Origin: Bacteroidia bacterium
GTDB taxonomy: Bacteria > Bacteroidota > Bacteroidia > Flavobacteriales > Flavobacteriaceae
Reading direction: 5' to 3'
Assembly: GCA_030427585.1 (NCBI GenBank)
Contig: JAUIBW010000009.1
Span: 1-64,000, forward strand
Length of the DNA stretch: 64,000 nt
Positions 11,783 to 42,773 of the stretch are shown piece by piece (position 1 is the first letter of the stretch; the number at the start of each line of letters is the position of its first letter). The notes beneath the pieces are model-generated. The model worked only from the letters and a program-made list of their open reading frames with translations, was not told the DNA's origin and searched no databases. The translations under genes and the position numbers were made by a program.

Positions 11783-11806
11783 TTATTATCTATATCGCAT
11801 ATTAAG

Positions 11807-11838
11807 AAGACCATTGTTTTTATAAAACAGTGGTTTTT
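11807..11838 (+). terminator. Terminator of gltX
   Basis: The stem CCATTGTTTT / AAAACAGTGG, with one G-U-type mismatch, is followed by TTTTTTG, 30 bases after the gltX stop. Confidence 0.7.
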
Positions 11839-11912
11839 TGCTTTTAAAAGTTTGTAACATTTCCCTCCTATCCTATACATATAAAGTATAAGATCATTAG
11901 AATTATTATATC

Positions 11913-12080
11913 ATGGGAAAACAATACAAGGTAGTACGTATATCAGAAAATTGGTCTTCAGAAAAACTTAGAGAAAAGATAGAAAATGCTATGAATAAGT
12001 TCTCTAAAGAAGGCTGGGAAGTCGTTGACATTTCTTTTTTAGCAAATACATATATGGCTATGATAACATTTTCAAAATAA
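11913..12080 (+). CDS. DUF4177-like small protein
   Basis: A 55-residue frame from ATG at 11913 to TAA at 12080, too short for many gene callers. It begins MGKQYKVVRISENW and has the pattern of the DUF4177 family: an amphipathic helix (EKLREKIENAMNKFSKEGWEVVDI) in which the GWEVV turn leads into a beta strand, then a final strand (YMAMITFSK). The longer frame on the opposite strand over the same bases lacks protein-like features. It lies between gltX and the SPFH gene on the same strand. The biochemical role is unknown. Confidence 0.7.
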   Translation: MGKQYKVVRISENWSSEKLREKIENAMNKFSKEGWEVVDISFLANTYMAMITFSK

Positions 12081-12150
12081 CAATCAATCATTTACAATTT
12101 ATTAGTACATTGATTTACAGAAAAACTTTTAACTCTTAATATATAAAACA

Positions 12151-13095
12151 ATGGGGCTATTTTTAATTCCAATAGTAATTTTTGGGTTTATCATTCTAAT
12201 TTCAGGAATATTTACCGTAAAACAACAAACCTCTGCAGTCGTTGAACGATTTGGCAAGTTTTTAAGCATAAGAAACTCAGGATTACATTTTAAAATTCCT
12301 ATTTTTGATCGAATCGCTGGACGAATCAATCTAAAAATACAACAACTTGATGTTCTTGTTGAAACCAAAACAAAAGATGATGTATTTGTTCGTCTTAAAA
12401 TATCTGTTCAATTTCAAGTTATTAAAGACAAAGTATATGATGCTTTCTATAAATTAGAAAATCCACACGATCAAATTACGTCTTATGTTTTTGATGTGGT
12501 TCGTGCCGAAGTACCAAAAATGAAACTGGATGATGTTTTTGAACGTAAAGATGATATTGCTATAGCAGTAAAACAAGAACTTAATGAAGCCATGGTAAAT
12601 TATGGATATGATATCATTAAAACGTTGGTGACCGATATTGATCCGGATTTACAGGTTAAAGAAGCTATGAACAGAATTAATGCTGCCGAACGTGAAAAGG
12701 TTGCAGCAGAATATGAAGCTGAAGCTGAAAGAATTAAAATTGTGGCAAAAGCGCGTGCTGAAGCTGAAAGTAAAAGATTACAAGGACAAGGTATTGCTGA
12801 TCAACGTAGAGAAATCGCCAGAGGTCTAGAAGAGAGTGTTGATGTTTTAAATAATGTAGGGATTAATTCTCAGGAAGCTTCTGCATTAATTGTAGTGACA
12901 CAACACTATGATACTTTACAATCTATTGGAGAAGAAACCAACAGTAATTTAATTTTACTTCCTAATTCTCCGCAAGCAGGAAGTGATATGTTAAATAATA
13001 TGATTGCATCGTTTACTGCTTCGAATCAAATAGGAGAAGAAATGAAAAGGCAAAATGCTAAAAAAGGTATTGGAAAAAAAACAGATAATAAATAA
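12151..13095 (+). CDS. SPFH/Band 7 (stomatin-like) membrane protein
   Basis: The 314-residue protein has one N-terminal membrane helix (about residues 3-22) followed at once by a Band 7 domain (TVKQQTSAVVERFGKF to about 180), with the typical INLKIQQLDVLVETKTKDDVFV core. A long Ala/Glu-rich helix (AAEREKVAAEYEAEAERIKIVAKARAEAESKRLQGQGIADQRREIARG) follows, as in stomatin and QmcA proteins. Such proteins form oligomeric membrane scaffolds. No NfeD-type partner or FtsH gene is next to it. It ends at a terminator at 13118-13153. Confidence 0.88.
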   Translation: MGLFLIPIVIFGFIILISGIFTVKQQTSAVVERFGKFLSIRNSGLHFKIPIFDRIAGRINLKIQQLDVLVETKTKDDVFVRLKISVQFQVIKDKVYDAFYKLENPHDQITSYVFDVVRAEVPKMKLDDVFERKDDIAIAVKQELNEAMVNYGYDIIKTLVTDIDPDLQVKEAMNRINAAEREKVAAEYEAEAERIKIVAKARAEAESKRLQGQGIADQRREIARGLEESVDVLNNVGINSQEASALIVVTQHYDTLQSIGEETNSNLILLPNSPQAGSDMLNNMIASFTASNQIGEEMKRQNAKKGIGKKTDNK

Positions 13096-13117
13096 GAAAA
13101 ATATAATTTTAAGTTCC

Positions 13118-13153
13118 AAACCCGGTCAAATTTTATGATCGGGTTTATTTTTT
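13118..13153 (+). terminator. Terminator after the SPFH gene
   Basis: AAACCCGGTC (13118-13127) pairs with GATCGGGTTT (13137-13146), with one internal mismatch, and a T-rich run follows. Confidence 0.75.
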
Positions 13154-13378
13154 TCCTAATGATTAAAAACTATTACTATTTTTCTAAAAAACTTAAAATA
13201 AAGCGTTTTTATACAACCAATGTATAAAAGTGATAAGATTATATTACTCCTTTTTTTTCTTCTCTTATGTCTATTTATATGAATCCATTTTTAATAAAAA
13301 AAAATAATGATTTTTAAGAAATTATAAATATTATTTATACTATAAAAAAATTAGTATCTTTAAGAAAAATTGTTCCCC

Positions 13379-13888
13379 ATGAAAAACTTTTTATTTATTT
13401 TCCTTTTCATTTCCGGAAGTGTTTTTTGCCAAGATATAAATACACTAAAAGAATTTGCATTACGAGATGCAAAAGCTACTTCTAAAGCATCTATTGATAG
13501 AAATTTAAGTACCATACTCAAATATACTCATCCAGAAGTTTACAAAGCTTATGGAGAAAAACAACTAATGGATACAATGGATGAAATTTATAGAACCATG
13601 GATGCTCAAAAAATAAAAATCCTAAGTTCTGAAATAGATGAAGTCACCGAGGTAAAAAAAGAAAACAAAGAATATCACTGTTTAGTTAAAAACACAGTGA
13701 AAATGGACTTTAATGGTAGATTAATTACTCTAAAAAGTTCGTTATTTGGTTTTTATAACAAGAAAAAATCTCAATGGTATTTTGTAGAATCTAATAAACT
13801 TCTAGATGATCCTCAAACCAAAAAACTCTTTCCTGATTTTAAAACAGATATCGAAATTCCTTTAGATGAGCATATTGCAGATAACTAA
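13379..13888 (+). CDS. Hypothetical secreted protein
   Basis: From ATG 13379 the product begins MKNFLFIFLFISGSVFCQ, a clear signal peptide ending in FCQ. A TTG nine bases upstream would only add Phe-Pro and is less likely. A near-consensus -7 element TATCTTTA lies at 13355-13362, so the leader would be very short. The mature part is about 150 residues, helical first and then beta-rich (VKNTVKMDFNGRLITLKSSLFGFYNKKKSQWYFVESNKL), resembling small secreted NTF2-like folds in outline only. It is monocistronic, convergent with glnS. I do not recognise the family. Confidence 0.7.
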   Translation: MKNFLFIFLFISGSVFCQDINTLKEFALRDAKATSKASIDRNLSTILKYTHPEVYKAYGEKQLMDTMDEIYRTMDAQKIKILSSEIDEVTEVKKENKEYHCLVKNTVKMDFNGRLITLKSSLFGFYNKKKSQWYFVESNKLLDDPQTKKLFPDFKTDIEIPLDEHIADN

Positions 13889-13895
13889 AAACTCA

Positions 13896-13922
13896 TAGAT
13901 ACAAAACTAATTTCTGTATCTA
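13896..13922. terminator. Weak hairpin between convergent genes
   Basis: TAGATACA (13896-13903) and TGTATCTA (13915-13922) form an 8-base stem between the secreted-protein gene and the convergent glnS. The flanking A- and T-runs are short. Confidence 0.4.
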
Positions 13923-13933
13923 CAAGTTCTTTT

Positions 13934-15976
13934 TTATATATCATAGTTAGAAGCAACTTCTTTGGCTTCTGATTGTAATACTTCATTCTTATCTTCAAGA
14001 GCTTTGATAACAAAATCTTTTGCTAACTGATCAGGTTGAATTCCTTTATTTTTAAGGATTTCATTTAAGGCAATCATAGTAGCGATACGAGTTCCCGCCT
14101 TTTTTACAGCTGTTTCATAAAGTGGCACAAGTTCCTCTAGTTCTATATTTTTGGCAGCCTCTATAATTTTGATTTTAAGTCCTTCTCTTTTAGCATCTGG
14201 CACATTTGTATACTTTTTCCCTGCTCTCTTTATTTCTTCGATTGGAAGAATTTCTTTTGATTGATTCTGAGGTTCTTTTTTAATATTTTGATGTGTTGAA
14301 ACTGGTTTTACTTTTGCCCAGGTATCTCGTAAACCAACAGTTTTATTAAATACCAAAGCACTAGGGGTACTATCGCTATCCACGTTAAAATATCCTAATC
14401 TTTGAAACTGAAATTGATCTAATGGTTTAGCATTTTTTAGACTAGGTTCTACATAACCTGTTATTATTTTTAAAGAATCTGGGTTTAAAAACTCAACAAA
14501 ATCTTTGTCTTTATGACCATCTGGAGCTTCATCACTAAACAATCGATCATAAATCCTAACCTCTGAAGGAATAGCATGATTTATTGATACCCAATGTAGT
14601 GTACCTTTTACATTGCGTTTTGATTCTTCGGTACCACTCCCCGACTTACTTTTTGCATCATATGTACATTGGATTTCTGTAATATTTCCTTCGGCATCTT
14701 TTATCACTCGTTCCCCTTTAATGATATATGCATTTTTAAGGCGTACTTCTTTTCCTAAAGTTAACCTAAAAAACTTTCTTCCTGCTTCTTCCTTAAAATC
14801 TTCTCTTTCGATATATAATTCGCCAGAAAATGGTACTTTTCTAGAACCCGCAGCTTCATCTTCTGGGTTGTTTTCTGCTTCTAACCACTCTTCTTCTCCT
14901 TTTGGATAATTGGTGATAACAAGCTTAACAGGATCCAAAACAGCCATTACTCTTGGCGCTGTTTTATTAAGATCCTCTCGTACACAGAATTCTAATAATG
15001 ATACATCAATTACATTTTCACGTTTTGCAACTCCTACAGTTTCAACAAACTTTCGTATTGATTTTGGAGTATATCCACGTCTTCTTAATGCCGAGATTGT
15101 AGGCATTCTGGGATCATCCCATCCAGACACTACTCCTTCTTCTACTAATCTGAGTAATTTACGCTTACTCATGATCGTATAGCTTAAATTAAGTCTTGCA
15201 AACTCCCTTTGTTTAGGGCGTATATTCGTACTGTATACTTGATCAAGAAACCAGTCATATAATTTTCTATGTGGTTTAAACTCTAATGAACATAAAGAAT
15301 GTGAGATGTTTTCTATATAATCACTTTCACCATGTGTCCAGTCATACATTGGATAAATGCACCAATCATCTCCTGTTCTGTGATGTGATTTTTTTAATAT
15401 TCTATACATCAAAGGATCTCGCATTAGCATATTTGGATCGGCCATATCGATCTTTGCTCTCACCACATGATCACCTTCATTATACTTACCTTCTTTCATT
15501 TCCCGAAAAAGCTCTAAATTTTCTTCAACAGAACGATCTCTGTATGGGCTATTGGTTCCTGGTTCTGTAGTAGTTCCTTTTTGAGAAGCAATGGTCTCTG
15601 CAGATTGAGAATCTACATAGGCTTTTCCATCCTTAATAAGCTGAACAGTCCAATCGTATAATTGCTGAAAATAATCAGACGAATAACATTCTTTATCCCA
15701 TTGATATCCTAACCATGTTATATCTTCTTTAATTGCATCTACATATTCCTGTTCTTCTTTGGCAGGATTAGTATCATCAAAACGTAGGTTTACCGGTGCA
15801 TTATACCTAAGACCAAGACCAAAACTAATACCTATAGCTTTAGTATGTCCTATATGTAAATACCCATTAGGTTCTGGAGGGAAGCGAAAACGTAAATTTT
15901 CTTTACTCATACCCATTGTAAGGTCCTCCTCTACAATATGCTCTATAAAATTAAGCGGTTTTTTTTCTTCTGACAT
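13934..15976 (-). CDS. glnS: Glutaminyl-tRNA synthetase
   Basis: From ATG 15976 the protein has 680 residues. HIGH is present in PPEPNGYLHIGHTKA (about 34-48), KMSKR as IMSKRKLL near 268, and the two-barrel anticodon-binding region follows. The frame extends 21 bases further upstream, but a perfect -7 promoter element (TAGTTTTG, minus strand, 15995-16002) occupies that region, which supports the start used here. E. coli GlnRS is about 554 residues. The extra C-terminal part (about 590-680), with VPDAKREGLKIKIIEAAKNIELEELVPLYETAVKKAG, looks like an added helical domain. The gene is divergent from folB. Confidence 0.95.
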   Translation of the reverse strand: MSEEKKPLNFIEHIVEEDLTMGMSKENLRFRFPPEPNGYLHIGHTKAIGISFGLGLRYNAPVNLRFDDTNPAKEEQEYVDAIKEDITWLGYQWDKECYSSDYFQQLYDWTVQLIKDGKAYVDSQSAETIASQKGTTTEPGTNSPYRDRSVEENLELFREMKEGKYNEGDHVVRAKIDMADPNMLMRDPLMYRILKKSHHRTGDDWCIYPMYDWTHGESDYIENISHSLCSLEFKPHRKLYDWFLDQVYSTNIRPKQREFARLNLSYTIMSKRKLLRLVEEGVVSGWDDPRMPTISALRRRGYTPKSIRKFVETVGVAKRENVIDVSLLEFCVREDLNKTAPRVMAVLDPVKLVITNYPKGEEEWLEAENNPEDEAAGSRKVPFSGELYIEREDFKEEAGRKFFRLTLGKEVRLKNAYIIKGERVIKDAEGNITEIQCTYDAKSKSGSGTEESKRNVKGTLHWVSINHAIPSEVRIYDRLFSDEAPDGHKDKDFVEFLNPDSLKIITGYVEPSLKNAKPLDQFQFQRLGYFNVDSDSTPSALVFNKTVGLRDTWAKVKPVSTHQNIKKEPQNQSKEILPIEEIKRAGKKYTNVPDAKREGLKIKIIEAAKNIELEELVPLYETAVKKAGTRIATMIALNEILKNKGIQPDQLAKDFVIKALEDKNEVLQSEAKEVASNYDI

Positions 15977-15994
15977 CTGTAATCTAATAAAACA

Positions 15995-16002
15995 CAAAAC
16001 TA
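15995..16002 (-). promoter_or_regulatory. -7 element of the glnS promoter
   Basis: CAAAACTA on the plus strand is TAGTTTTG on the minus strand, a perfect TAnnTTTG. It places the transcript start about 10 bases before the ATG at 15976. Confidence 0.55.
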
Positions 16003-16117
16003 CAAATTCTAATCCTGCCTTGCTATTCTATAAAAATCTTTAATGCAATTATTTTATTAATACTAAAATTCGTTAGAAAAGGGGTATTCTCCCTGCTTAA
16101 ATCATAAAGATTCTTTT

Positions 16118-16125
16118 TACATTTG
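16118..16125 (+). promoter_or_regulatory. -7 element of the folB promoter
   Basis: TACATTTG is a perfect TAnnTTTG only 13 bases upstream of the GTG start of folB, implying an almost leaderless message. It also overlaps the alternative TTG at 16123, which therefore cannot be the start. Confidence 0.55.
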
Positions 16126-16137
16126 CTTAAAAACCCC

Positions 16138-16494
16138 GTGGGATTAATAAAATTAAAAAATATCAAGGTTTATGCTTATCATGGATGCCTTGTAGAAGAA
16201 AAAAAAATAGGGTCTGATTACAGAGTAGATCTAAAAATTAAAGCTGATTTATCTAAGTCTGCAATATCTGATCGTTTAGCAGAAACTGTAGACTACGTTC
16301 ATCTTAATCATATTGTAAAAGAAGAGATGTCTATTCGTTCTAAATTATTAGAACATGCAGCAGAGCGAATTTTAGTTCGTATATTAAATGAATTACCATT
16401 AGTTGATAAAGTTATTGTAGATGTTTCAAAAATTAATCCACCTATTGGCGGAAATGTAGAAATGGTTACTATAACAAGGAGTAAAAAACGATAA
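16138..16494 (+). CDS. folB: Dihydroneopterin aldolase
   Basis: The 118-residue protein begins GLIKLKNIKVYAYHGCLVEEKKIGSDYRVD, which contains the FolB substrate-binding motif around YAYHG and the conserved Glu. The C-terminal VDVSKINPPIGGNVEMVTI is also typical. FolB cleaves dihydroneopterin to 6-hydroxymethyl-dihydropterin and glycolaldehyde in folate synthesis. No in-frame ATG exists near the N-terminus. The GTG at 16138 fits the usual family start and the promoter position. It is divergent from glnS and is followed by tRNA-Cys. Confidence 0.92.
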   Translation: MGLIKLKNIKVYAYHGCLVEEKKIGSDYRVDLKIKADLSKSAISDRLAETVDYVHLNHIVKEEMSIRSKLLEHAAERILVRILNELPLVDKVIVDVSKINPPIGGNVEMVTITRSKKR

Positions 16495-16562
16495 CTTAGT
16501 GTTAAAATTATATGAAAAGCGTTTTATTGTAAAATCATTTAAGAAGTAATCATAAATTTTTT

Positions 16563-16570
16563 TACATTTG
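16563..16570 (+). promoter_or_regulatory. -7 element of the tRNA-Cys promoter
   Basis: TACATTTG (TAnnTTTG) lies 18 bases upstream of the first tRNA base, a spacing expected for a short 5' leader. Confidence 0.55.
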
Positions 16571-16588
16571 CCTTCCAAGCAAAAATTG

Positions 16589-16659
16589 GGTGTCGTGGCC
16601 GAGTGGCTAGGCAGTGGTCTGCAACACCATCTACAGCGGTTCGAATCCGCTCGACACCT
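16589..16659 (+). tRNA. tRNA-Cys (anticodon GCA)
   Basis: A full cloverleaf can be drawn: acceptor stem GGTGTCG/CGACACC, D stem GCC/GGC, anticodon stem GTGGT/ACCAT with loop CTGCAAC (anticodon GCA), T stem GCGG/CCGC with loop TTCGAAT. The discriminator base is U, as is usual for tRNA-Cys. The CCA end is not encoded. Length 71. Confidence 0.96.
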
Positions 16660-16660
16660 C

Positions 16661-16690
16661 AAAAATCCTGTACTTATGTGCAGGATTTTT
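16661..16690. terminator. Bidirectional terminator between tRNA-Cys and the LysE gene
   Basis: AAAAATCCTG (16661-16670) and CAGGATTTTT (16681-16690) are perfect complements with a 10-base loop. The right arm touches the stop codon of the leftward LysE gene. Confidence 0.85.
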
Positions 16691-17385
16691 TATTTAAATC
16701 TGGAATCTGGTGTTATTTTTTCAATTTCGTCCTGAATTCGTTTCTCCATTGTATCTGGTAAAACACCTTTTAAAATAAGAAATACACCAAATACAATCAT
16801 AATAATACTAATAATCCTCTTGATAATGTAGGTTCTTTTTGGGGTTAATTTTCTCTTTAATCTTTTTGCCAACAGCATTTTAAAAAAATCAATAAAAAGA
16901 TATGTGCCGATAACCATTATAAAAAACCATAAAATTCTATTCGTATTCATATCTAATTGTGGTCCTATAACAATAACAACACTTAACCAGAATCCTAATA
17001 CTCCAATATTTATAAAATTAAGTAAGAACCCTTTTATAAATAACATAAAATAATTGTGCTTATTGATAATTTCTACTGTAGTATCTCTAAGTTTATTGTA
17101 GTTTTTTCTTTCCTGAATAAAAGAAATTACACCATATGTAGATAGCAACATCCCACCAAATATAAATAAGGCAGGATCATCTTTTATTTTTTCTAAAATC
17201 TGATTGGTACTAAAATAAGCAATAAGAATAAACACTATATCTGCAAAGATAACTCCTAAGTCTACAGCTAAAGCCGCTCTAAACCCCTTAATAGCTGCTG
17301 TTTCCAGAAGTACAAAAAAAACGGGTCCAATTAAAAAGGCTAATAAAAAACCTAATGGTATAGCTGCTTGAGCATCTTGAAGCAT
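16690..17385 (-). CDS. LysE/RhtB-family amino-acid exporter
   Basis: The 231-residue protein has about six hydrophobic helices. The first region has the family feature IPLGFLLAFLIGPVFFVLLETAAIKGFRAALAVDLGVIFAD, with the conserved GP and the Asp at the end of the second helix. Members export amino acids or related small molecules across the inner membrane. The start is just outside the next gene upstream (18100 to 17423) on the same strand, so cotranscription is possible. The substrate is unknown. Confidence 0.85.
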   Translation of the reverse strand: MLQDAQAAIPLGFLLAFLIGPVFFVLLETAAIKGFRAALAVDLGVIFADIVFILIAYFSTNQILEKIKDDPALFIFGGMLLSTYGVISFIQERKNYNKLRDTTVEIINKHNYFMLFIKGFLLNFINIGVLGFWLSVVIVIGPQLDMNTNRILWFFIMVIGTYLFIDFFKMLLAKRLKRKLTPKRTYIIKRIISIIMIVFGVFLILKGVLPDTMEKRIQDEIEKITPDSRFK

Positions 17386-33743: not shown

Positions 33744-34788
33744 GTTTAATAAGATATATGTATACCGGAAAATGATCACTATACCCTCCTGTATATGTAG
33801 TATTGATATAACTGCGAAAAGGATATCCTTTATACTTGCCTGTTGGTGTAATCAAATATTCTGGATTGAATATTCCTGCTTTATAATACCGATAAGAAGA
33901 ATAATCGGTATCTAAAAAACTTTTAGAAATAATAATTTGATCAAACAGATTCCATTGATCTCTCCACGCAAGAGACCCCAACCCTTCTTTTGCCAATTTT
34001 GCCATAGGATTGTAAAGACCTTTAATTTCGATATTTTTTCTATGCTGTTTTGCCTTCAGTATTTTTTTTACACTCGAGTCATTCGGGTTATCATTAAGAT
34101 CACCCATCGTGATGATTTTTGCATACGGATCTGTAGCGAATATAGAATCCATTATCTTTTTATTTAATGCTGCTGCTTTTTCTCTCTTATATCTACTTCT
34201 GGCTTCTCCTCCTCTTCTTGATGGCCAATGATTTACAATTATATATAGTAAATCCCCATCTAGATAGCCACTTACTAATAATTGATCTCTTGTAAACAAT
34301 CGTTTAGCAGTATCTTTGTCGTAAATTACCAATTCATGCTTATTGTAGTTTTTCACTTTAAACAAGGCATTTTGGTAAAGTAAAGCCACATCTATACCTC
34401 TTCTATCAGGTGAGTCAAAATGAACAATACCGTAATCTTTAGATCTAAGATTTGGATCATTAATAAGGTCTTGGAGTACTTTTCTGTTTTCTATTTCTGC
34501 AACACCTATAATAGCGGGAGAGTTGATAGCTATACTTTTACCTATTTCAGAGATTGTTCTGGCCATATTTTTTACCTTATGTACATACAGTTTATACGTC
34601 CAATGATCTTTTCCTTTAGGAGTTCTGTCATCATCAAAGGTTATAGGGTCATCTTCGGGATCAAAGAGATTTTCGAGATTATAAAATGCTATAGTATGAA
34701 TCATATACTCCTTTTTTTCTTGTGCAAAAAGAAATGAAGTGAATACTAAAATGAAAACGAGCTTTACACAGATATTTTTTGAAAACAT
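33733..34788 (-). CDS. Secreted endonuclease/exonuclease/phosphatase (EEP) family protein
   Basis: The 351-residue protein has a signal peptide (KLVFILVFTSFLFAQ). The EEP (DNase I-like) core shows FYNLENLFD at about 31-39, the metal Glu in GVAEIENRKVL, VNHWPSRRGG, GDLNDNP, and the terminal SDHFPVYI. Members are metal-dependent phosphodiesterases or nucleases. Its paralogue at 49268-50239 lacks the signal peptide. It is divergent from the TonB-dependent receptor and may supply it with nucleic-acid products (inference from position). The substrate is not proven. Confidence 0.88.
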   Translation of the reverse strand: MFSKNICVKLVFILVFTSFLFAQEKKEYMIHTIAFYNLENLFDPEDDPITFDDDRTPKGKDHWTYKLYVHKVKNMARTISEIGKSIAINSPAIIGVAEIENRKVLQDLINDPNLRSKDYGIVHFDSPDRRGIDVALLYQNALFKVKNYNKHELVIYDKDTAKRLFTRDQLLVSGYLDGDLLYIIVNHWPSRRGGEARSRYKREKAAALNKKIMDSIFATDPYAKIITMGDLNDNPNDSSVKKILKAKQHRKNIEIKGLYNPMAKLAKEGLGSLAWRDQWNLFDQIIISKSFLDTDYSSYRYYKAGIFNPEYLITPTGKYKGYPFRSYINTTYTGGYSDHFPVYIYLIKQKR

Positions 34789-34804
34789 AAGATTGGTTTT
34801 TGTG

Positions 34805-34836
34805 AGATCTCACAGGTTTTAAAACCCGTGAGGTCT
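34805..34836. repeat. Palindromic repeat copy A (degenerate)
   Basis: AGATCTCACAGGTTT and AAACCCGTGAGGTCT form an imperfect inverted repeat of 32 bases. It is the most diverged member of the five-copy family and lies between the divergent EEP and TonB-receptor genes. Confidence 0.8.
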
Positions 34837-34926
34837 GGGATTAATGTTCTCGCACATCTCGATTAAAATCTTAAGATTGTCCTTGAACAAATATTACTTA
34901 TAAATCAATTACAAATATTGGTTTTT

Positions 34927-34949
34927 CCAGTTTCGAAAAATGAAACTGG
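34927..34949. repeat. Second palindromic repeat, copy 1
   Basis: CCAGTTTC (34927-34934) and GAAACTGG (34942-34949) are perfect arms around the loop GAAAAAT. A near copy with the same loop occurs at 40075-40097. Confidence 0.7.
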
Positions 34950-35020
34950 GATAATTTATACTTGCTCTTTATTAATATGTAACTCAGCATCATTTTTTGA
35001 GTTATTTAACTCCATATATC

Positions 35021-37909
35021 ATGAACCATACTCTTTTCGATTCAAAGTATACTATATTGCTACTGCTTTTTTGTAGTATTTTAGGCATACATGCCCAAAA
35101 AACTGGGTTAAAAGGAAAAATTATCGATGCCATTTCTGGTGTAAATCTTGAAAAAGTTAGAGTATCTATTAAAAAAACAAAGATTACTGTACTCACTAAT
35201 ACTTTTGGTGAATTTGATTTTATAGATACTATACTTCCTTTAGGGGAGCAAGTACTTATATTATCGAAAAAAGGATATATAACTAAGCGTTTTCCTATTA
35301 CAATTAATGAAGGAAATGTCCTGGATCTCAAAAAAATAGATTTACATTTTGACTTTAATACCGAACAACGACAAATAGGTACAATTAGCCTTTCGGATCA
35401 CGAATTAGATGAAAATAATGATATATCTTTTAGTGTTTCGGGATTACTTCAATCTACCCGGGATGTATTTCTTACTGCGGCAGCATTTGATTTTAGCTCA
35501 ACTTTTTTTCGCCCGAGAGGTTTAGGAAATGAGAACGGAAAAATCCTGATCAATGGGGTTGAAATGAACAAATTTTCTAATGGAAGACCGCAATGGAGCA
35601 ATTGGGGAGGATTAAATGATGTACAACGTAATCAGGAATTTTCATTAGGAATTTCAGAAAACGACTATACATTTGGAGATCTTTTAGGAACTTCTAACAT
35701 CATTATGAGAGCTTCTAAGTACCGCAAAGGAGGCAAAATATCTTATGCTTTTTCTAACCGTAGTTACCAGGGAAGAGTAATAGGAACGTATAATTCTGGG
35801 GTTACCGCAAAAGGATGGGCCTTCTCTGTATCCTTATCCAGAAGGTATGGAAAAGAAGGTTTTGTTGAAGGAACCTTATACGATTCAAATTCATTTTTTG
35901 TTTCGATTGAAAAAAAATTAGGGAACAAACACAGCTTAAATCTAACAGGTTTTTATACTCCAAACCGTAGAGGAAGATCTACAGCAATTACCAATGAAGT
36001 ATTTAGTCTTAAAGGAAACAAATATAATCCTAACTGGGGATACCTGAACGGAGAAATAAGAAACTCTAAAGAACGGAAAATAGAAGAGCCAGTCTTTATG
36101 TTAAACCATTATTGGGATATATCAAAAAAAACTCATTTACAAACTAATATCGCTTTTCAAACGGGTAAAATTGCTAATAGTAGAATAGACAATGGAGGAA
36201 GTGATTTAATAACTGGTCCAAGCGGTCAACAAACCTATATTGGAGGAGGAAGAAGCGCAGACATCAATCCTGTGCATCCAGATAATATGCCAAGTTCTTT
36301 TTTAGAAGATCCTAATCCAACTCCTCTGGATTATCAAAATGCTTTTTTGGCACAACAACACCTCATCAACAATGGGCAATTAAACTGGGAAGATATATTG
36401 CGGACCAATCAACAAAATGCACAAAAAGGCAATAACTCAACATATATCTTATATGAGGATAGAACAGATGATACCTTATTGAGTGGTAATATGATACTAA
36501 ATAGTCAATTCAATACATACATTACAGTAAATGCAGCAATTGGTTATAAGAATTTAAAGAGTCAAAATTTTGCTGAGGTAACAGATCTTTTGGGTGGTAC
36601 TGGTTTTCTGGATGTTGACATGTTTGCGTTATCTTCAACAGGATTATCTTCTTCCGAATTAGCTAGTAGAGCACAGAGTGATTTGCGCAATCCGAATCGT
36701 ATTGTAGAGGTAGGAGATCGCTACGATTATAATTATGAGATTGAGGCTTCTGCGATTAATGGATTTCTTCAGGGACAATTTAAGTTGAAAAGAGTTAATT
36801 TCTTTTTAGGCGGAACAGTTTCGCAAACATCATATCAAAGAAATGGTTTGTTTGAAAATGGATATTTTCCTGGAAACGATTCCTTTGGAAAAAGTGAAGC
36901 TTTAAATTTCATGAATTATGGAGTAAAAGGAGGAACTACCATTGCGATCAATGGGCATCATTTTATTAAACTTCAAGGGGCTTATTTTAATAAAGCACCT
37001 ACAATTCGTAACGCTTTTGCAAATGCAAGATATAATAATAGTACCATAGCGCAATTAATAGGAGAACATCAGGAAAGTGAAAAAATCCAATCTGTAGATG
37101 GTAGTTATATATTTCGTTCCCCTAAGATCAAAGCCAGATTAACAGGGTATTATTCTAAGATTTTGGATGCTACCAATATTTCTTTCTTTTTTACCGAAGC
37201 TATTTCAGGATCAGATGTAGGGTTTGTTCAGGAAATACTTACCGACATAGATAAACGATATATCGGAGGAGAATTTGGGATCGAATATCAAATCACACCT
37301 ACTATTAAAATTAAAGGAGCAGCGGCAGCCGGTAGTTTTGTATTCGATAATGATCCAGACTTGGTTTTAACTAGTACTAGCGAAGCATTTTCAGATATTG
37401 AAGGGATACAAAGTTTTGGAAAGTCGGCATTAAAAGGATATCACATTGCAGGAGGACCTCAACGGGCAGGGCAGTTAGGTTTTGAGTATCGTGATCCTGA
37501 TTTTTGGTGGTTTGGAGCTACCACAAATTATTTTTCTAACGCGTATATCAACATAAGTCCTTTTGCAAGAACAGCTAATTTTTATCGAGATACTGATGGA
37601 TTACCTTTTAATGATTATGATGAGGATGTTGCAAAACAACTTTTACAACAAGAGCAGTTTAAAGACTATTTCCTTGTAAATGCTATTGGGGGTAAATCCT
37701 GGAGAATTAAGAAATACTATATTGGTTTTTTTGCCTCTATTAATAATATTCTTAATCAAGAATATAAAACAGGAGGATTTGAACAGGCCAGAACTGCAAA
37801 TTACCGACTGGCTTTAGAAGAGTCACAACGGGATACTCCTGTTTATGGGTCAAAATACTTTTATGGGTATGGCACTTCCTACTACCTTAATGTATATGTA
37901 AGATTTTAG
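35021..37909 (+). CDS. TonB-dependent outer-membrane receptor (SusC-like)
   Basis: From ATG 35021 the protein has 962 residues. A signal peptide (ILLLLFCSILGIHAQ) precedes a carboxypeptidase-regulatory-like domain (about 35-115), then a plug region (FSSTFFRPRGLGNENGKILINGVEMN) and a long beta-barrel ending in an aromatic C-terminus (YYLNVYVRF). Such receptors import large or scarce ligands across the outer membrane using TonB energy. It is followed, after a palindromic repeat, by a DUF5689 lipoprotein, a pairing that I consider a receptor-partner arrangement. The ligand is unknown; the EEP nuclease upstream suggests nucleic-acid or phosphate compounds. Confidence 0.88.
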   Translation: MNHTLFDSKYTILLLLFCSILGIHAQKTGLKGKIIDAISGVNLEKVRVSIKKTKITVLTNTFGEFDFIDTILPLGEQVLILSKKGYITKRFPITINEGNVLDLKKIDLHFDFNTEQRQIGTISLSDHELDENNDISFSVSGLLQSTRDVFLTAAAFDFSSTFFRPRGLGNENGKILINGVEMNKFSNGRPQWSNWGGLNDVQRNQEFSLGISENDYTFGDLLGTSNIIMRASKYRKGGKISYAFSNRSYQGRVIGTYNSGVTAKGWAFSVSLSRRYGKEGFVEGTLYDSNSFFVSIEKKLGNKHSLNLTGFYTPNRRGRSTAITNEVFSLKGNKYNPNWGYLNGEIRNSKERKIEEPVFMLNHYWDISKKTHLQTNIAFQTGKIANSRIDNGGSDLITGPSGQQTYIGGGRSADINPVHPDNMPSSFLEDPNPTPLDYQNAFLAQQHLINNGQLNWEDILRTNQQNAQKGNNSTYILYEDRTDDTLLSGNMILNSQFNTYITVNAAIGYKNLKSQNFAEVTDLLGGTGFLDVDMFALSSTGLSSSELASRAQSDLRNPNRIVEVGDRYDYNYEIEASAINGFLQGQFKLKRVNFFLGGTVSQTSYQRNGLFENGYFPGNDSFGKSEALNFMNYGVKGGTTIAINGHHFIKLQGAYFNKAPTIRNAFANARYNNSTIAQLIGEHQESEKIQSVDGSYIFRSPKIKARLTGYYSKILDATNISFFFTEAISGSDVGFVQEILTDIDKRYIGGEFGIEYQITPTIKIKGAAAAGSFVFDNDPDLVLTSTSEAFSDIEGIQSFGKSALKGYHIAGGPQRAGQLGFEYRDPDFWWFGATTNYFSNAYINISPFARTANFYRDTDGLPFNDYDEDVAKQLLQQEQFKDYFLVNAIGGKSWRIKKYYIGFFASINNILNQEYKTGGFEQARTANYRLALEESQRDTPVYGSKYFYGYGTSYYLNVYVRF

Positions 37910-37913
37910 CTTC

Positions 37914-37946
37914 AAACCTCACAGGTCTCTAAGACCTGTGAGGTCT
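37914..37946. repeat. Palindromic repeat copy B
   Basis: The 33-base inverted repeat differs from the consensus mainly in the second base (AAACCTCACAGGTCT ... AGACCTGTGAGGTCT). It starts 5 bases after the receptor stop codon, in the gap before the DUF5689 gene. Confidence 0.9.
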
Positions 37947-37988
37947 ACTTAATAAGAACAATAAACACAACAAAAAATATAATATAAA

Positions 37989-39383
37989 ATGAACACAAAG
38001 AATTTTTTTTGGATTTTAATTGTATCATGTACAATTATGGCTTGCTCACCAGAAGATGGATTTAAAATACCTCCGGTTACCATAGATGAACCACAAATTG
38101 AAGGTACACTAATTACAATTGATGCAATACTCGGTATTTTGGGACAGCAACTTGTAGAAGATGGAGAAAATGCTAAAGTGGTTTTTAAAGACACTAATAA
38201 TTTTATCCAGGGTTATGTAGTATCCAGTGATAAAGCCAGTAATTTTTTTAAAGAATTGGTGATTCAGGATAAATATACCAACCCTTCTGCAGGTGTTCGG
38301 GTATTAATTGATGATAACCCATTATATACTACTTATGAATTTGGACGTAAAGTATACATCAAACTAGACGGTTTATCCCTTGGGATAGAAAATGGGATTC
38401 CAACTCTCGGAATTTCAGAAGGAAATACTATTGGTGCCATCCCCTCTTTTTTTATAGAAGAAGTTGTGATAAGGTCTACAGAAACGGCTGCCATAACTCC
38501 ACTGGAAATCACAATTGAAGATTTTACTGATAAGCTGGTAAACGTATACATCAAAGTAAACAATATTCAGTTTACTAAAAATCTCATTTTAGAAGATAAC
38601 ACCTTTACTTTTGCAGCAGAAAACTATGATAAGTTTGATGGAGAACGTATTGTAGAGAGTTGTGCAACAGGAAGAAATACAATACTAAGTACGAGTACTT
38701 TTTCAGACTTTAAAGGGCTTAAACTACCAAATCAACAAGGAAGTTTTGAAGGAATATTAACTAAAAATTTTTTAGGAAACTCATATAACTTAGTGCTTAA
38801 CGATCCACTAGGGTTAGTATTTGATAATGAAACGAGATGCGACCCTATAGTTTTAGAATGCCCAGTAGTTTCCGAAGGAGCTATAGTAGTATTCGAAGAA
38901 GATTTTACAGATCTCAAAATCGGTGATCTGGAAGATTCAGGATGGACGAATAGTAATATCACAGGAGGAAAGTTAAAGTATAAGACAGGTAATTTTGGCG
39001 AAAATCAATATGCACAAATAACAGGATATAGGTCAAAAGAAAGTTTATATGAAGTATGGTTTATTACTCCTGATATTGATATAAGCACCTCAACAGATGA
39101 GGTTTTACAATTTGATCTTCAGGCAGGATACGATAACGGAAATATCCTTGAGGTTTTTGCCACTGATAATTTTACCGGAGACCCTGCAACTACATCGTGG
39201 ACAAAGCTTGATGCTATGATCCCTAGAGGGCCATTAAATGCTTTTGGCAATTCTATACCAGCAGGACCTATTGGATTATCTTGCTTAGAAGGTACCATTC
39301 GTATAGGTTTTCGGTATATTGGTGGTGATCCCAGAGCCACTACACGATACCATATCGATAATATAAAAATTACCGGAAAATAA
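37989..39383 (+). CDS. DUF5689 surface lipoprotein with choice-of-anchor J domain
   Basis: The 464-residue protein has a lipoprotein signal (LIVSCTIMACSPEDG). The DUF5689 region (about 35-235) includes QGYVVSSDKASNFFKELVIQD and an OB-fold-like strand pattern. The C-terminal half (about 300-464) has VVFEEDFTD...GW, ENQYAQITGYRSKESLYEVWFITPDID and a final HIDNIKITG, as in choice-of-anchor J (jelly-roll) domains. Members are secreted and probably bind ligands at the cell surface next to a TonB-dependent receptor. The ligand is not known. Confidence 0.8.
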   Translation: MNTKNFFWILIVSCTIMACSPEDGFKIPPVTIDEPQIEGTLITIDAILGILGQQLVEDGENAKVVFKDTNNFIQGYVVSSDKASNFFKELVIQDKYTNPSAGVRVLIDDNPLYTTYEFGRKVYIKLDGLSLGIENGIPTLGISEGNTIGAIPSFFIEEVVIRSTETAAITPLEITIEDFTDKLVNVYIKVNNIQFTKNLILEDNTFTFAAENYDKFDGERIVESCATGRNTILSTSTFSDFKGLKLPNQQGSFEGILTKNFLGNSYNLVLNDPLGLVFDNETRCDPIVLECPVVSEGAIVVFEEDFTDLKIGDLEDSGWTNSNITGGKLKYKTGNFGENQYAQITGYRSKESLYEVWFITPDIDISTSTDEVLQFDLQAGYDNGNILEVFATDNFTGDPATTSWTKLDAMIPRGPLNAFGNSIPAGPIGLSCLEGTIRIGFRYIGGDPRATTRYHIDNIKITGK

Positions 39384-39392
39384 GATGTGATC

Positions 39393-39425
39393 AGACCTCA
39401 CAGGTCTTCAAGACCTGTGAGGTCT
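39393..39425. repeat. Palindromic repeat copy C
   Basis: AGACCTCACAGGTCT, a TCA loop, and AGACCTGTGAGGTCT form a perfect 15-base stem. It is 10 bases after the DUF5689 stop and just upstream of the RAYT gene. Confidence 0.92.
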
Positions 39426-39443
39426 AAATTAGAAAATAGAAAA

Positions 39444-39985
39444 ATGAAATACGAACCATTAGTACCTGATACTTATTTTCATATATACAATAGAGGAAAC
39501 AATAAAGAAGATATTTTTAAAGAAGAGCGCAACTATACGTACTTTTTGAGCCTTCTTGAGAAGTATTGTAACGATATCTGCGAAGTTTATGCATATTGCT
39601 TACTGAAGAATCATTTTCATTTAGTAATTAAGACAAATACAGATGTTGAAGGAAGGTTGATTTCACAGAAATTTTCGAATATGTTTAATACCTATGCTAA
39701 AGCGATCAACAAAGCTTATGATAGAAGTGGAAGTTTGTTCAAAGATAGATTTTCAAGAAAGAAAATAGATAATGAAGTATATATGTACATTTAAATCCGG
39801 AACACCACAGGATGGCTTCAGATTTCAGAGCATATCCATTCTCTTCGTATCAAAGTTTTTTATCTTCTAAACATTCCGGGCTCAGTAGGGAGTTTATACT
39901 CTCTTTGTTTGGTGACATACCTAATTTTGAGTATGCACACTTAAATAGAAAAGTAAAAATTGAGGAACATTATACTTTAGAATAG
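39444..39985 (+). pseudogene. REP-associated tyrosine transposase (RAYT), frameshifted
   Basis: From ATG 39444 the frame encodes a Y1/RAYT-type protein: YHIYNRGNN near residue 12, the HuH motif LKNHFHLVIK near 55 and a transposase tail ending KKIDNEVYMYI, then a stop at 39792-39794. In the +2 frame the coding resumes at once: TTA AAT CCG GAA (LNPEHHRMASDFRAYPFSSYQSF) to a TAG at 39983-39985. Family proteins read YIHxNPxxHG here, so the site looks like a deletion of four bases (TTCATT to TT). The palindromes at 39393-39425 and 40009-40041 flank the gene, as in RAYT/REP systems. The protein is probably inactive. Confidence 0.85.
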
Positions 39986-40008
39986 ATTAGTTAAAATATA
40001 GTTATTAC

Positions 40009-40041
40009 AGACCTCACAGGTCTTGAAGACCTGTGAGGTCT
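40009..40041. repeat. Palindromic repeat copy D
   Basis: AGACCTCACAGGTCT, TGA loop, AGACCTGTGAGGTCT. It lies 23 bases after the end of the RAYT reading frame and in the same orientation as copy C. Confidence 0.92.
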
Positions 40042-40074
40042 AGGTAAAATCAAATATAATTACAATTATTTTCT

Positions 40075-40097
40075 TCAGTTCCGAAAAATGAAACTGG
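40075..40097. repeat. Second palindromic repeat, copy 2
   Basis: TCAGTTCC and GAAACTGG flank the same GAAAAAT loop as at 34927-34949. Two positions in the left arm differ. Both copies sit 30-90 bases beyond a member of the 33-base palindrome family. Confidence 0.6.
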
Positions 40098-40187
40098 TGT
40101 GCTGTATCATTGTATATCAATTATTTATTAACTAATACCTATTGTACATGATAAAGGAAACAATGGGTTTTTAAAACATATTATACA

Positions 40188-40889
40188 ATGTCTAAAGAAA
40201 ATTATGACACCAAGTTGGTAGTGTTAGAAGCATTACCACAAGAAGCCGTAAAATCACCAACAATTCCTGTTGATGTCTTTATGCAAGAAGCCGAAAACTT
40301 ATATGTATGGGCAGAAGAAGACAAAGAAACCTTGGTTGCCAAAGGATTAGATTGGCAGGTGTATGGAGAAGATTTGCCCGTTAGAACCGGAGCATGTCGA
40401 TATGCTCAGGCCATTTGGATGAAAGAACGGTATAGTCAGGAAGAAGCTGCCAAAGCCTGGAGAAAAGAGTCCCCCAAGGCTTATGAGTTTAGAAATGACC
40501 TGCTTGCCGATTTGCGTTTTGCCTTTCGTAAGCGATCAGATCTTATAGCCCGTGTACGTGCTATTGCAGATGGAGAAGGTGATGCAGATATGATCCAGGA
40601 TTTAATGGATATTAGTGTATTGGGTAAAGCCAATGCATCAGAGCTGGAAAAAATTAAATATGATCTTCGAAACTTAGAACTGGCTGCACAGAGATCTGAT
40701 ACTCTAGCCGAATTGTTGGCTAAAGCCAATGGGACTACCTTAGATAATTCTAAAGCCAAAGCAATGCGAGATAGAGCCTATACCTATCTTAAGGAAGCAA
40801 TTGATGAGGTTCGGGACACGGGTAAATATGCTTTTAGAAAAGACCCAGAGCGGTATAAGGGGTATATTAGTCAATACAAACGCCGATAA
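40188..40889 (+). CDS. Orphan alpha-helical protein of unknown function
   Basis: The 233-residue protein has no signal peptide and is mostly predicted-helical: LDWQVYGEDLPVRTGACRYAQAIWMKERYSQEEAAKAWRKESPKAYEFRNDLLADLRFAF, then heptad-like ELEKIKYDLRNLELAAQRSDTLAELLAKANGTT, and a basic C-terminus (YKGYISQYKRR). Its DNA is richer in G+C than its neighbours (28 of 60 in 40441-40500 against 20 of 60 in 36001-36060), which suggests transfer. It is directly followed by a GC-rich inverted repeat and a spaced repeat array. I do not recognise the family. Confidence 0.75.
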   Translation: MSKENYDTKLVVLEALPQEAVKSPTIPVDVFMQEAENLYVWAEEDKETLVAKGLDWQVYGEDLPVRTGACRYAQAIWMKERYSQEEAAKAWRKESPKAYEFRNDLLADLRFAFRKRSDLIARVRAIADGEGDADMIQDLMDISVLGKANASELEKIKYDLRNLELAAQRSDTLAELLAKANGTTLDNSKAKAMRDRAYTYLKEAIDEVRDTGKYAFRKDPERYKGYISQYKRR

Positions 40890-40907
40890 TCACAAGCTAT
40901 AACTAAG

Positions 40908-40964
40908 CCCGCGCACAAGGTTAAGGTTTCCGCGCAATTAGGGAGCCTGATCATGTTGCGCGGG
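40908..40964. repeat. GC-rich inverted repeat downstream of the orphan gene
   Basis: CCCGCGCA (40908-40915) and TGCGCGGG (40957-40964) are perfect 8-base arms 41 bases apart, and a third CGCGCA lies between them (40931-40936). A T-rich run (TTTGTTTT) follows. It could be a structured terminator or an RNA element; such GC content is exceptional in this window. Confidence 0.55.
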
Positions 40965-40972
40965 TTTGTTTT

Positions 40973-41210
40973 ACCTCTGCGGGGGAAGCGGCCAATATAC
41001 CGATGGTCGATACAACTAATGCGCGGAAAACCACAATTATGTGATGAAAACATGTAATGTACCGATGATCGATAAAAGTAATGCAAGGATAGTGTACAAA
41101 TTTGCGGGGAGAGCATTTACTATACCGATGGTCGATAAAAGTTGAGAAAGGACAAGATGCTCCTATGTAGTAGCGACAGCAATTAGTATACCAATGAACG
41201 ATATTAAATT
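40973..41210. repeat. Array of four regularly spaced 17-base repeats
   Basis: The core TATACCGATGGTCGATA occurs at 40996-41012, 41058-41074, 41121-41137 and 41187-41203, with periods of 62, 63 and 66 bases. Copies 1 and 3 are identical over the core; copies 2 and 4 differ at two and three positions. A flanking pattern is also shared upstream (TGCGGGG followed by AGC) and downstream (AAAGTAATGC). The intervals between cores are not identical to each other. Confidence 0.8.
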
Positions 41211-41287
41211 GTTTAAACACTTTTTTCTCAAGATATGAAGAATATGTATAAGTAAAAACTCTAAATGCAATACACGACAAAACCTTT

Positions 41288-41320
41288 AGACCTCACAGGT
41301 CTTTAAGACCTGTGAGGTCT
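41288..41320. repeat. Palindromic repeat copy E
   Basis: AGACCTCACAGGTCT, a TTA loop, AGACCTGTGAGGTCT; perfect stem. It marks the right end of the repeat-rich interval. Confidence 0.92.
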
Positions 41321-41440
41321 GATTAAAGATAATTTTTATAAACGGCTGAATTCTATTCAGGTACCCTATTATTTTTTTTCATATTCTTTTGTCGTTAGCT
41401 TTTAACAAAGCATTGTATTTTGCATAAAAAAGCAGAACTA

Positions 41441-42520
41441 ATGGCTAGTATAGAAATCCGTCATTTAAAACTTATTGATACCGTTGCAGAAGTAGGAACC
41501 TTAAAAAATGCAGCAGAAAAACTTTTTCTTACACAATCGGCATTAAGTCATCAACTTAAAGAATTAGAATCTCGTTTAGGCACTCAAATCTTTTATAGAG
41601 TTAATAATCAATTAGTATTTACTACGTCTGGTAAAGAGTTACGAGATGCCAGTAAAGAAATACTCGAACGGTTAAAACAGGCAGAGAGTACTATCCAGGA
41701 AATAGGTCAAGATCATATGAAGGATTATATCCATGGATATTCTCAGGAAGAAACAACTCGATTAAATGACCAGGCTAATTCTATTGCAGAACTTTTGCAC
41801 TGGGACTCAAAATGGAAAGAAGGCTCCCTAATACTTGAAGCGGGTTGTGGTGTTGGGGCACAAACCAAAATTATTGCAAAAAACAACATAGATTCGACTT
41901 TTGTTTCTGTAGACCTGTCTATTGCGTCATTAGAAAAAGCAGAGGTATCAATCAAAGAGCACGATATCAAAAATGTAGAATTTAAGGTTGCCGATTTGTT
42001 AAACTTACCCTTTAAAGACAATCATTTTGATCACATTTTTGTTTGCTTTGTTTTAGAACACATATCCCAACCAAAAGAAGCTATACAAGAACTAAAAAGA
42101 GTTCTTAAACCTGGGGGAACCCTTATGATAATTGAAGGAGATCATGGTTCTGCATACTTTTATCCAAACAGCCTATCTGCGCAAAAAGTGATCCAGGCAC
42201 AAGTAACTTTACAAGAACAAAAAGGAGGGAATGCCAATATTGGCAGAGCACTATACCCATTGTTATTTGATTCTGGATTTAAAAATATTAATATTTCTCC
42301 GAGGCAGGTATATGTTGATGATTCGAAACCCGAATTACTAGATGGGTTTATTAAAAATACGTTTACCGCAATGGTCAAAAGGATTGCAGAAGAAGCACTG
42401 GCAAAGAAAATTATTAGCAAAGAAGAAATGAACAGAGGTATTAATGATTTATATAAGACTGCCAAAGGAGGAGGTACATTTTGCTATACTTTTTTTAAAG
42501 GAATAGCGATTAAAGAGTAA
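41441..42520 (+). CDS. MetR-like LysR HTH domain fused to a SAM-dependent methyltransferase
   Basis: From ATG 41441 (a TTG at 41420 is less likely) the protein has 359 residues. Residues 1-85 form a LysR-type winged helix (IEIRHLKLIDTVAEVGTLKNAAEKLFLTQSALSHQLKELESRLG) that most resembles MetR. The usual periplasmic-binding-fold effector domain is absent. Instead, from about residue 95 (YIHGYSQEETTRLNDQ) there is a complete class I methyltransferase with ILEAGCGVGAQTKIIA, DNHFDHIFVCFVLEHI and LKRVLKPGGTLMIIEGD, as in stand-alone family members. There is no stop or frameshift at the junction. The combination could be a regulator that senses S-adenosylmethionine or a methylation target (inference). 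Confidence 0.85.
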   Translation: MASIEIRHLKLIDTVAEVGTLKNAAEKLFLTQSALSHQLKELESRLGTQIFYRVNNQLVFTTSGKELRDASKEILERLKQAESTIQEIGQDHMKDYIHGYSQEETTRLNDQANSIAELLHWDSKWKEGSLILEAGCGVGAQTKIIAKNNIDSTFVSVDLSIASLEKAEVSIKEHDIKNVEFKVADLLNLPFKDNHFDHIFVCFVLEHISQPKEAIQELKRVLKPGGTLMIIEGDHGSAYFYPNSLSAQKVIQAQVTLQEQKGGNANIGRALYPLLFDSGFKNINISPRQVYVDDSKPELLDGFIKNTFTAMVKRIAEEALAKKIISKEEMNRGINDLYKTAKGGGTFCYTFFKGIAIKE

Positions 42521-42773
42521 TGTTTTAGCCCATTAAACTTCTTATGTGTTCAGATAGAATTAATAGTTAAGCTATAATCGTGGTATTAGGTAATCGTCGA
42601 ATCTGAAATCCTTCGTAATAGATTTGTTTATATGTTTTACCCCGACTCTTCTATACCAGATTATAGCTTATTGATGTTCGATTTTGAACACTTTTATTCG
42701 TCTAAAGAATGTATTTGTCAGCACAATTAGAGTATACAAGGATTATAAAACGCTATCTAGAATAACGAAAAGT
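42521..42773. other. Gene-free gap containing a MITE-like inverted repeat
   Basis: No coding frame is visible. Arms at 42568-42589 (starting TAAGCTATAATC) and 42651-42670 (ending GATTATAGCTTA) are almost perfect complements over 20 bases, enclosing a 103-base element. A terminator for the leftward gene follows at 42774. Confidence 0.55.

Follow-up and report, generated by a model that had tools for sequence, protein, structure and literature searches.

A family of untagged palindromes around a broken RAYT gene in a flavobacterial genome

Palindromes that lie on both sides of a transposase gene raise the question whether the encoded enzyme acts on them or whether gene and repeats share a place by chance. 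This question arises in a 64,000-nucleotide stretch of a Bacteroidia bacterium of the Flavobacteriaceae (assembly GCA_030427585.1, contig JAUIBW010000009.1, positions 1 to 64,000; here called the window), in which five palindromes lie within 6.5 kb around a gene for a REP-associated tyrosine transposase (RAYT; REP, repetitive extragenic palindrome). The original prediction, made from the letters of the window, proposed that the RAYT mobilises these palindromes. Our analysis makes it probable that the locus is REPtron-like and belongs to an untagged, REPIN-like repeat family, with a RAYT nuclease acting on its palindromes. The genome (G000 in our set) comprises 5.08 Mb in 62 contigs, the window is its contig 13, and the host genus of the RAYT is very probably Aquimarina.

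The palindromes and the RAYT gene of the window

The five palindromes were all found where they had been predicted, and they frame the RAYT gene as follows:

34805..34836, no strand: copy A of the palindrome, a degenerate 32-nt version recognised by reading, flanked by divergent genes
37914..37946, no strand: palindrome copy B, 1 mismatch, 4 nt past the stop of an upstream 970-codon open reading frame (ORF)
39393..39425, no strand: palindrome copy C, left border of the RAYT unit, directly 5' of the RAYT start codon
39444..39986, + strand: RAYT-type Y1 transposase gene, broken; the first frame ends after 116 codons with the stop at 39792-39794, and the C-terminal part is read in a different frame up to 39986
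40009..40041, no strand: palindrome copy D, right border of the RAYT unit
41288..41320, no strand: palindrome copy E, right border of the D-E insert

A search of the window with AGACCTCACAGGTCTNNNAGACCTGTGAGGTCT, allowing up to 3 mismatches, gave four matches (37914, 39393, 40009 and 41288) and none in each of 100 shuffles. Copies B to E are near-perfect palindromes with almost identical stems, copy A is degenerate, and the spacers vary (CTA, TCA, TGA, TTA, by reading), in agreement with the original prediction.

Outside the window the family is widespread in the genome. With up to 3 mismatches the 33-mer occurs 25 times, and with up to 2 mismatches its 27-nt core occurs 33 times; the reversed pattern gave none in both cases. 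Copies occur on many contigs, and the flanks of the 34 that were examined differ. A simple ORF test places 32 of the 34 outside ORFs; one of the two others is copy C, within an upstream extension of the RAYT frame. One copy counted as outside (L001, 1501-1533; G000:C4:209940) overlaps a gene end: it stands at the extreme end of the gene and by reading supplies its stop codon, and the corresponding gene of the related genome G064 ends without a palindrome. Four of the 34 copies lie between divergent and nine between convergent ORFs, and several directly follow stop codons. At the eight positions after the stem, T occurs in 4, 8, 16, 23, 12, 11, 14 and 11 of the 34 copies, which is no T-rich run. 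For this reason, and because of the copies between divergent or convergent ORFs, simple intrinsic terminators were rejected as an explanation. The GT[AG]G tag of canonical REPs is not conserved at the ends or in the flanks of these 34 copies.

The arms of most palindrome types are small dyads themselves (AGACC-n5-GGTYT, AACCC-n5-GGGTT and others). When 54 different halves of 15 nt are compared, 90% of the half-stem cells are paired, as against 80% (maximum 85%) after redistribution of the 3' letters, and none of 2000 such shuffles reached 90%. The second and the fourth pair are the loosest (81% and 80%), and at pair 3-13 35 halves have A-T and 17 have C-G. Owing to this co-variation, the best reading of the 33-mer is a pair of inverted mini-hairpins, each of 15 nt with the variable pentamer as its loop, which a 3-nt spacer separates. 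This replaces the single long hairpin as the sole unit, and with it the unusually long stem of the original prediction. As single-stranded DNA the whole element of the window forms one hairpin of 15 bp (-16.5 kcal/mol), an isolated half reaching -3.7 kcal/mol; co-variation and folds together give the REPIN layout of two inverted REP units in one hairpin. L083, L085, L122, L185 and L195 carry elements with unequal arms, one bearing TGCAA and the other TACAA, which leaves a G-T wobble or a mismatch in the long stem.

The gene between copies C and D encodes, as predicted, a palindrome-flanked Y1 transposase of RAYT type, but it is broken. It matches Pfam PF01797 (Y1_Tnp) with 28.7 bits (cut-off 23) and NCBIfam REP_Tyr_transpos with 24.1 bits, below the cut-off of 80, which the intact orthologue L033 with 50 bits does not reach either. 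Compared with the orthologues of genomes G018, G063 and G064, 19 bp are absent and the frame shifts just before the catalytic-tyrosine motif; an assembly error is a possible cause. Being broken, this RAYT is not likely to mobilise anything now. In G018, G063, G064 and G024 the orthologue occupies the same place, with a DUF5689 lipoprotein gene on one side, a LysR/methyltransferase gene on the other and a palindrome at each side of it. It is open across the whole profile in G018, G064 and G024, and departs from the profile near the C-terminus in G063. From this shared position the gene looks vertically inherited, unlike an insertion sequence. H57, H59, Y120 and N124, thus an HUH motif and a single tyrosine, are invariant in 50 aligned relatives. 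The structure predicted for the G018 orthologue (predicted local distance difference test score, pLDDT, 92.8) has as its best PDB match 4er8, TnpAREP with a REP hairpin (E 3e-8).

Palindrome type and RAYT lineage

The palindromes of the window are of the TCACA type, named after the pentamer. In a set of 66 genomes of the genus, TCACA palindromes (up to 1 mismatch) were found in 30 and RAYTs of the family (profile search, E <= 1e-8) in 19. A RAYT of the TCACA clade occurs in 9 of the 12 genomes with at least 5 TCACA copies and in 2 of the 54 others (Fisher p 3e-7); G005 and G053 were assigned to this clade by sequence identity (65% and 70%), no matching palindromes having been read beside their RAYTs. 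Three further types are rarer, with TGTCA palindromes in 12, TTCAA in 6 and CCAAA in 4 of the 66 genomes. All genomes with a matching RAYT have copies (TGTCA 4/4, TTCAA 2/2, CCAAA 3/3), compared with 8/62, 4/64 and 1/63, respectively, of those without. G000 itself holds two RAYTs of this clade, the TCACA one of the window and a TTCAA one on contig C47, and among the four types searched its palindromes are TCACA (28) and TTCAA (16), with no TGTCA or CCAAA. Further PF01797 proteins are encoded on its contigs C44, C37, C25, C6 and C39.

A wider survey used a profile built from 17 RAYTs. Within the taxonomic family of G000, at least 59 of 397 genomes and at least 46 of 237 genera have such RAYTs (E <= 1e-25), both lower bounds since up to 8 candidates were scored per genome. 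Loci from named genomes were added as the best 80 of 561 confirmed ones; these 80 carry mostly Bacteroidota titles with a few from Chlorobiota, Chloroflexi and Methylobacter, and many are metagenome-assembled genomes. After removal of 7 duplicates and 8 loci without a family match at threshold, 164 of 179 loci remained. Pentamers were read by a mechanical rule, as the five letters between CC and GG in an arm. Palindromes were readable on both sides of the RAYT at 76 loci, on one side at 51 and on neither at 37. At 72 of the 76 two-sided loci a pentamer is common to both sides, and the commonest pentamer is equal left and right at 57 of the 76 (shuffled mean 8.4, maximum 18). Strong palindromes occur at 2.2 per kb within 250 nt of the RAYT and at 0.06 per kb beyond 600 nt, a 36-fold difference, and 108 of the 164 loci have at least one within 250 nt.

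On a tree of 109 RAYTs, from which 4 loci with discordant sides, loci without a pentamer and short matches were left out, the pentamer changes 19 times (87 rows, 11 recurring states; singleton states omitted), compared with a mean of 55 and a minimum of 48 for shuffled labels. Here TGCAA and TACAA were merged because elements carry one in each arm; without merging, 26 changes are counted. With all 33 states among the 109 loci, some of them perhaps misread by the rule, there are 41 changes (shuffled mean 77, minimum 70). The pentamer type tracks the RAYT lineage in related bacteria: at RAYT loci elsewhere the build of the palindromes is kept and their core changes with that lineage. As a separate observation, L129 has a palindrome of another type (AACTTTTCCAAAGTT...) inside the RAYT coding sequence.

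These associations also bear on the view that the palindromes are signals selected by the host, such as terminators, mRNA stabilisers or protein sites, two of which the RAYT carries by chance. The palindrome forms a very stable RNA hairpin (-26.6 kcal/mol, z -6.5) and several copies directly follow stop codons, as such signals might. The missing T-rich run and the copies between divergent (4/34) and convergent (9/34) ORFs, by contrast, do not fit, no Rfam family reached its gathering score in a scan of 34000-42600, and neither a core that changes with the RAYT lineage nor a 36-fold density beside RAYTs would be expected. We regard host signals as very unlikely.

The link between RAYT and palindrome reaches into the coding sequence at a group of loci. 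The TTCAA RAYT of G000 (L056, 1507-2967) runs in frame through its right palindrome into hemF, giving 486 amino acids from the RAYT start with matches to PF01218 (E 2e-133) and, above cut-off, to the NCBIfam model of oxygen-dependent coproporphyrinogen oxidase. A hemF match lies in the fetched flank, from adjacent to about 1.6 kb off, at 36 RAYT loci (35 without a duplicate), and 20 of the 36 (19 without the duplicate) have RAYT and hemF in one open frame, the coding linker being palindrome-like in most cases:

Fused RAYT-HemF loci: L056, L088, L091, L095, L097, L099, L100, L103, L105, L107
Fused RAYT-HemF loci, continued: L109, L111, L112, L113, L121, L122, L125, L210, L222

Both histidines and the tyrosine are kept in 18 of the 19 fusions, and in 16 the linker contains GF[EKQ]N, an example being DLSGFENLTGL, translated from the palindrome. 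The 17 fused loci in the RAYT tree fall into one clade of 36 rows (Shimodaira-Hasegawa-like approximate likelihood ratio test, SH-aLRT, 85), which includes unfused members. A comparison of the RAYT-HemF protein with plasmid records gave 61 matches, of which none spans over 80% of its length; the five displayed match the HemF part only.

Loss of the RAYT, presence and absence of palindromes, and inserts

The sister species of G000 is G009 (two gene stretches are 95.7% identical, support 100/100). In G009 all of the DNA between a point just 5' of palindrome C and one just 3' of palindrome E is missing, with the junction at a 3-bp GAT repeat, and the genome has no RAYT match at E <= 1e-8 in the profile search. 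Since G018, G063, G064 and G024 have the RAYT at this place, one loss explains the pattern. G009 keeps 37 TCACA palindromes, the most among the 66 genomes. Thus, the enzyme gene is broken in G000 and gone in its sister, while the repeats persist.

Single palindromes also differ between species. At the L247 site the palindrome is present in G000 and G009 and absent in G063, at L254 it is present in G000 and G063 and absent in G064, and at L001 it is present in G000 and G018, lacks one arm in G009 and is absent in G064. These three sites were chosen since match lengths hinted at an absence; judged in this way, the relatives have a palindrome at many other sites. At the site of copy B, G018 and G063 have the palindrome, in G064 it is partly decayed, and in G024 just 8 nt (AGATCTCA) remain, so that a clean empty site was rejected there.

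Between copies D and E the palindromes border a further segment:

40042..41287, no strand: palindrome-bounded D-E insert, carrying a 233-amino-acid gene; in G018 and G063 a single palindrome replaces D, insert and E
40188..40889, + strand: the 233-amino-acid gene, no Pfam or NCBIfam match

This gene is also missing from G064. Next to a different copy of the palindrome, at G000:C10 (L245), there is a paralogue that occupies two frames; the DNA of the insert is 83% identical to that segment, and the similarity starts at the palindrome in both, none being found leftward. A homologue in G017 (L051) has a matching stretch without a palindrome. At L064 of G024, 10357-17106 in window direction, a 6.7-kb block lies between two palindromes and terminates in a repeat of the last ~170 bp preceding palindrome C. 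These cases suggest that the palindromes bound movable or recombining segments, with ordinary recombination as the alternative. On reading, the D-E insert also shows several repeats of a TACCGATGGTCGATAAAAGT-like motif at about 41000-41200.

One might go further and explain the whole cluster of five copies in 6.5 kb by segmental duplication or by recombination between palindromes, with no special enzyme. The D-E insert and the G024 block with its ~170-bp repeat, both ending at palindromes, are what such events would leave. Dispersed copies with unrelated flanks, found on many contigs among the 34 examined, contradict a local origin, which in addition leaves the left-right agreement of pentamers and their association with the RAYT tree unexplained; local duplication is therefore hardly credible, and the least probable of the explanations considered.

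Somewhat better, yet still unlikely, is that the palindromes are the ends of a true transposon resembling an insertion sequence, built as palindrome-RAYT-palindrome, with solo copies as excision footprints or miniature derivatives. The same palindrome bounds the RAYT on both sides, in G058 the RAYT unit is found on the opposite side of the DUF5689 gene, and in G009 the block is gone together with its palindromes, although that junction also fits a deletion at the GAT repeat. Several near-identical transposase copies, typical of insertion sequences, are not seen: each of the 66 genomes has at most one full-length copy per RAYT type (G058 has a fragment in addition). The unit stands at the same place in G000, G018, G063, G064 and G024, and of the 28 TCACA palindromes of G000, which has one RAYT of this type, two are at the RAYT. 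The fragment in G058 (G058:C15:58379-58803) has stop codons and lies between two TGTCA palindromes, with the full-length TGTCA-type RAYT elsewhere in that genome.

The REPtron-like reading, which we prefer, would work as follows. The element would be made of two inverted 15-nt hairpins, each with a stem of about 5-6 bp and a loop of 3-5 nt, 3 nt apart. A single-copy, vertically inherited HUH/Y1 nuclease with the TnpAREP fold, encoded between two copies, would recognise the hairpins in single-stranded form, probably through the loop pentamer (TCACA in the window), and cut beside them, so that elements may be copied or moved into intergenic DNA, occasionally carrying a neighbouring gene between two copies. 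Where the nuclease decays, as in G000, or is lost, as in G009, the palindromes would remain as a slowly eroding population.

Several points weigh against this reading. Single-strand binding, loop recognition, cutting and movement by the RAYT are what we infer from the patterns described. No target-site duplication was seen at the three inspected sites (L247, L254, L001), and deletions could also explain the presence/absence cases. The mechanical rule left 51 of 164 loci with a palindrome on one side only and 37 with none. The quick RAYT tree has 35 of 106 inner branches unresolved, and label shuffles leave the relatedness among rows in place. The comparison for TGTCA, TTCAA and CCAAA is partly circular because RAYTs were typed by the flanking palindromes that are then counted, the CCAAA palindromes of G004 and G028 being the flanking ones alone; G036, whose truncated RAYT was typed by likeness to the TTCAA RAYT of G000, is an exception to this typing. 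Finally, there are families without a matching RAYT: CCAAA in G031 (16 copies), TGTCA in G051 (8), and TCACA in G009 (37), G036 (27; its sole RAYT is truncated and related to the TTCAA one) and G034 (5). According to the original prediction, a palindrome confined to this segment, or present in genomes that lack RAYT genes, would sever the mobilisation link. The link between palindrome and RAYT withstands this check: the family is genome-wide, the cognate RAYT accompanies 9 of 12 copy-rich genomes (2 of the 54 others), and at RAYT loci elsewhere the core changes with the RAYT lineage. The original prediction is supported in part, since the three TCACA families stand without a cognate RAYT and the RAYT of the window is broken.

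Other observations in the window concern the surroundings. The 970-codon ORF upstream of copy B has a CarboxypepD_reg-like domain with a score slightly below cut-off. Copies A and D are both followed by similar DNA that contains a short hairpin-like sequence (TTTCGAAAAATGAAAC-like), at about 34905-34950 and at 40058-40097, respectively. At 41420-42520 a LysR-type helix-turn-helix (HTH) domain is fused to an S-adenosylmethionine methyltransferase domain in one ORF, which looks unusual.

Relation to known systems and meaning

As in the REPtrons and REPINs of gammaproteobacteria (PMC8266576), a single-copy HUH/Y1 nuclease is flanked by hairpin repeats that are dispersed in intergenic DNA, enzyme and repeat co-vary, and the hairpins come in inverted pairs. 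Unlike those, the window family lacks the GT[AG]G tag, its 33-nt palindrome is made of two 15-nt hairpins and a 3-nt spacer, it has tens rather than hundreds of copies, and its intact orthologue stays below the NCBIfam RAYT cut-off (50 vs 80). Being short, multi-copy and extragenic (32/34 outside ORFs), the palindromes resemble canonical REPs, which usually exceed 100 copies (PMC2817692); here, 33 were found in G000 (up to 2 mismatches) and at most 37 across the 66 genus genomes (up to 1 mismatch). With cognate repeats on both sides of the gene, we file the window locus as working like a REPtron, the REP tag aside. Recognition of REPs by RAYTs was worked out in vitro for three enzyme-repeat pairs (PMC8266576). 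The same paper describes a REP of S. maltophilia that has a 3-nt loop on a perfect stem and whose recognition depends on a base in the loop. Our reading of the pentamer as a loop fits this case.

TIRYTs and TIRtrons (Di Nocera 2013, PMC3733652) are similar in that a RAYT-like gene is flanked by inverted repeats unrelated to GTAG repeats, some of them self-complementary and some forming dispersed families. By reading, the TCACA palindrome does not contain the motif GGGGWSAS published for them, and in the sections consulted that account describes neither lineage-wide co-variation nor a double-hairpin build. Among the TnpAY1 classes of Quentin 2018 (PMC6006769), the window clade agrees with subclass 2.1 (RAYT group 1) in NH[YF]H, in Y[IV]HLNP, in Phe for Trp and in the spacing between HuH and tyrosine, 63 against a range of 58-67 given for subclass 2.1 and TIRYTs. 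In the wider RAYT set the residue before N of Y[IV]HLNP varies (L, T, K, Q). The C-terminal, DnaA_C-like HTH of that group was not found by Pfam in the intact 188-amino-acid orthologue. Subclass 2.6 (RAYT group 5, Bacteroidetes) shares the phylum, and atypical secondary structures without a tag occur at its genes and at other sites in the genome; it was rejected, as the window clade differs from it in the motifs (NH[LIV]H, WQ and YIH[QN]NP in subclass 2.6) and in the HuH-Y spacing, which is 82 there (PMC6006769). By the same source, no REP-like sequences were found beside subclass 2.1 genes, although the subclass is tentatively equated with TIRYTs, which have inverted repeats. Among the top 10-30 openly licensed papers per literature search, titles and abstract openings gave no description of this palindrome family or of a RAYT-HemF fusion.

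More tentatively, flavobacterial RAYTs of a supposedly REP-less group might carry a natural recognition code, in which the loop pentamer of a 33-nt double hairpin has been rewritten repeatedly together with the nuclease, and of which orthogonal pairs can coexist in one genome, bound gene-sized inserts and be built into hemF with the palindrome as linker. REP-like repeats are now placed beside a RAYT group that was reported to have none. The family comprises dozens of enzyme-hairpin pairs that are matched by nature and vary in the five letters of the loop. Two different pairs share one genome, and one species (G009) has just lost the enzyme. Therefore, both the question which residues read which loop and the question of REP movement without a RAYT become directly testable.

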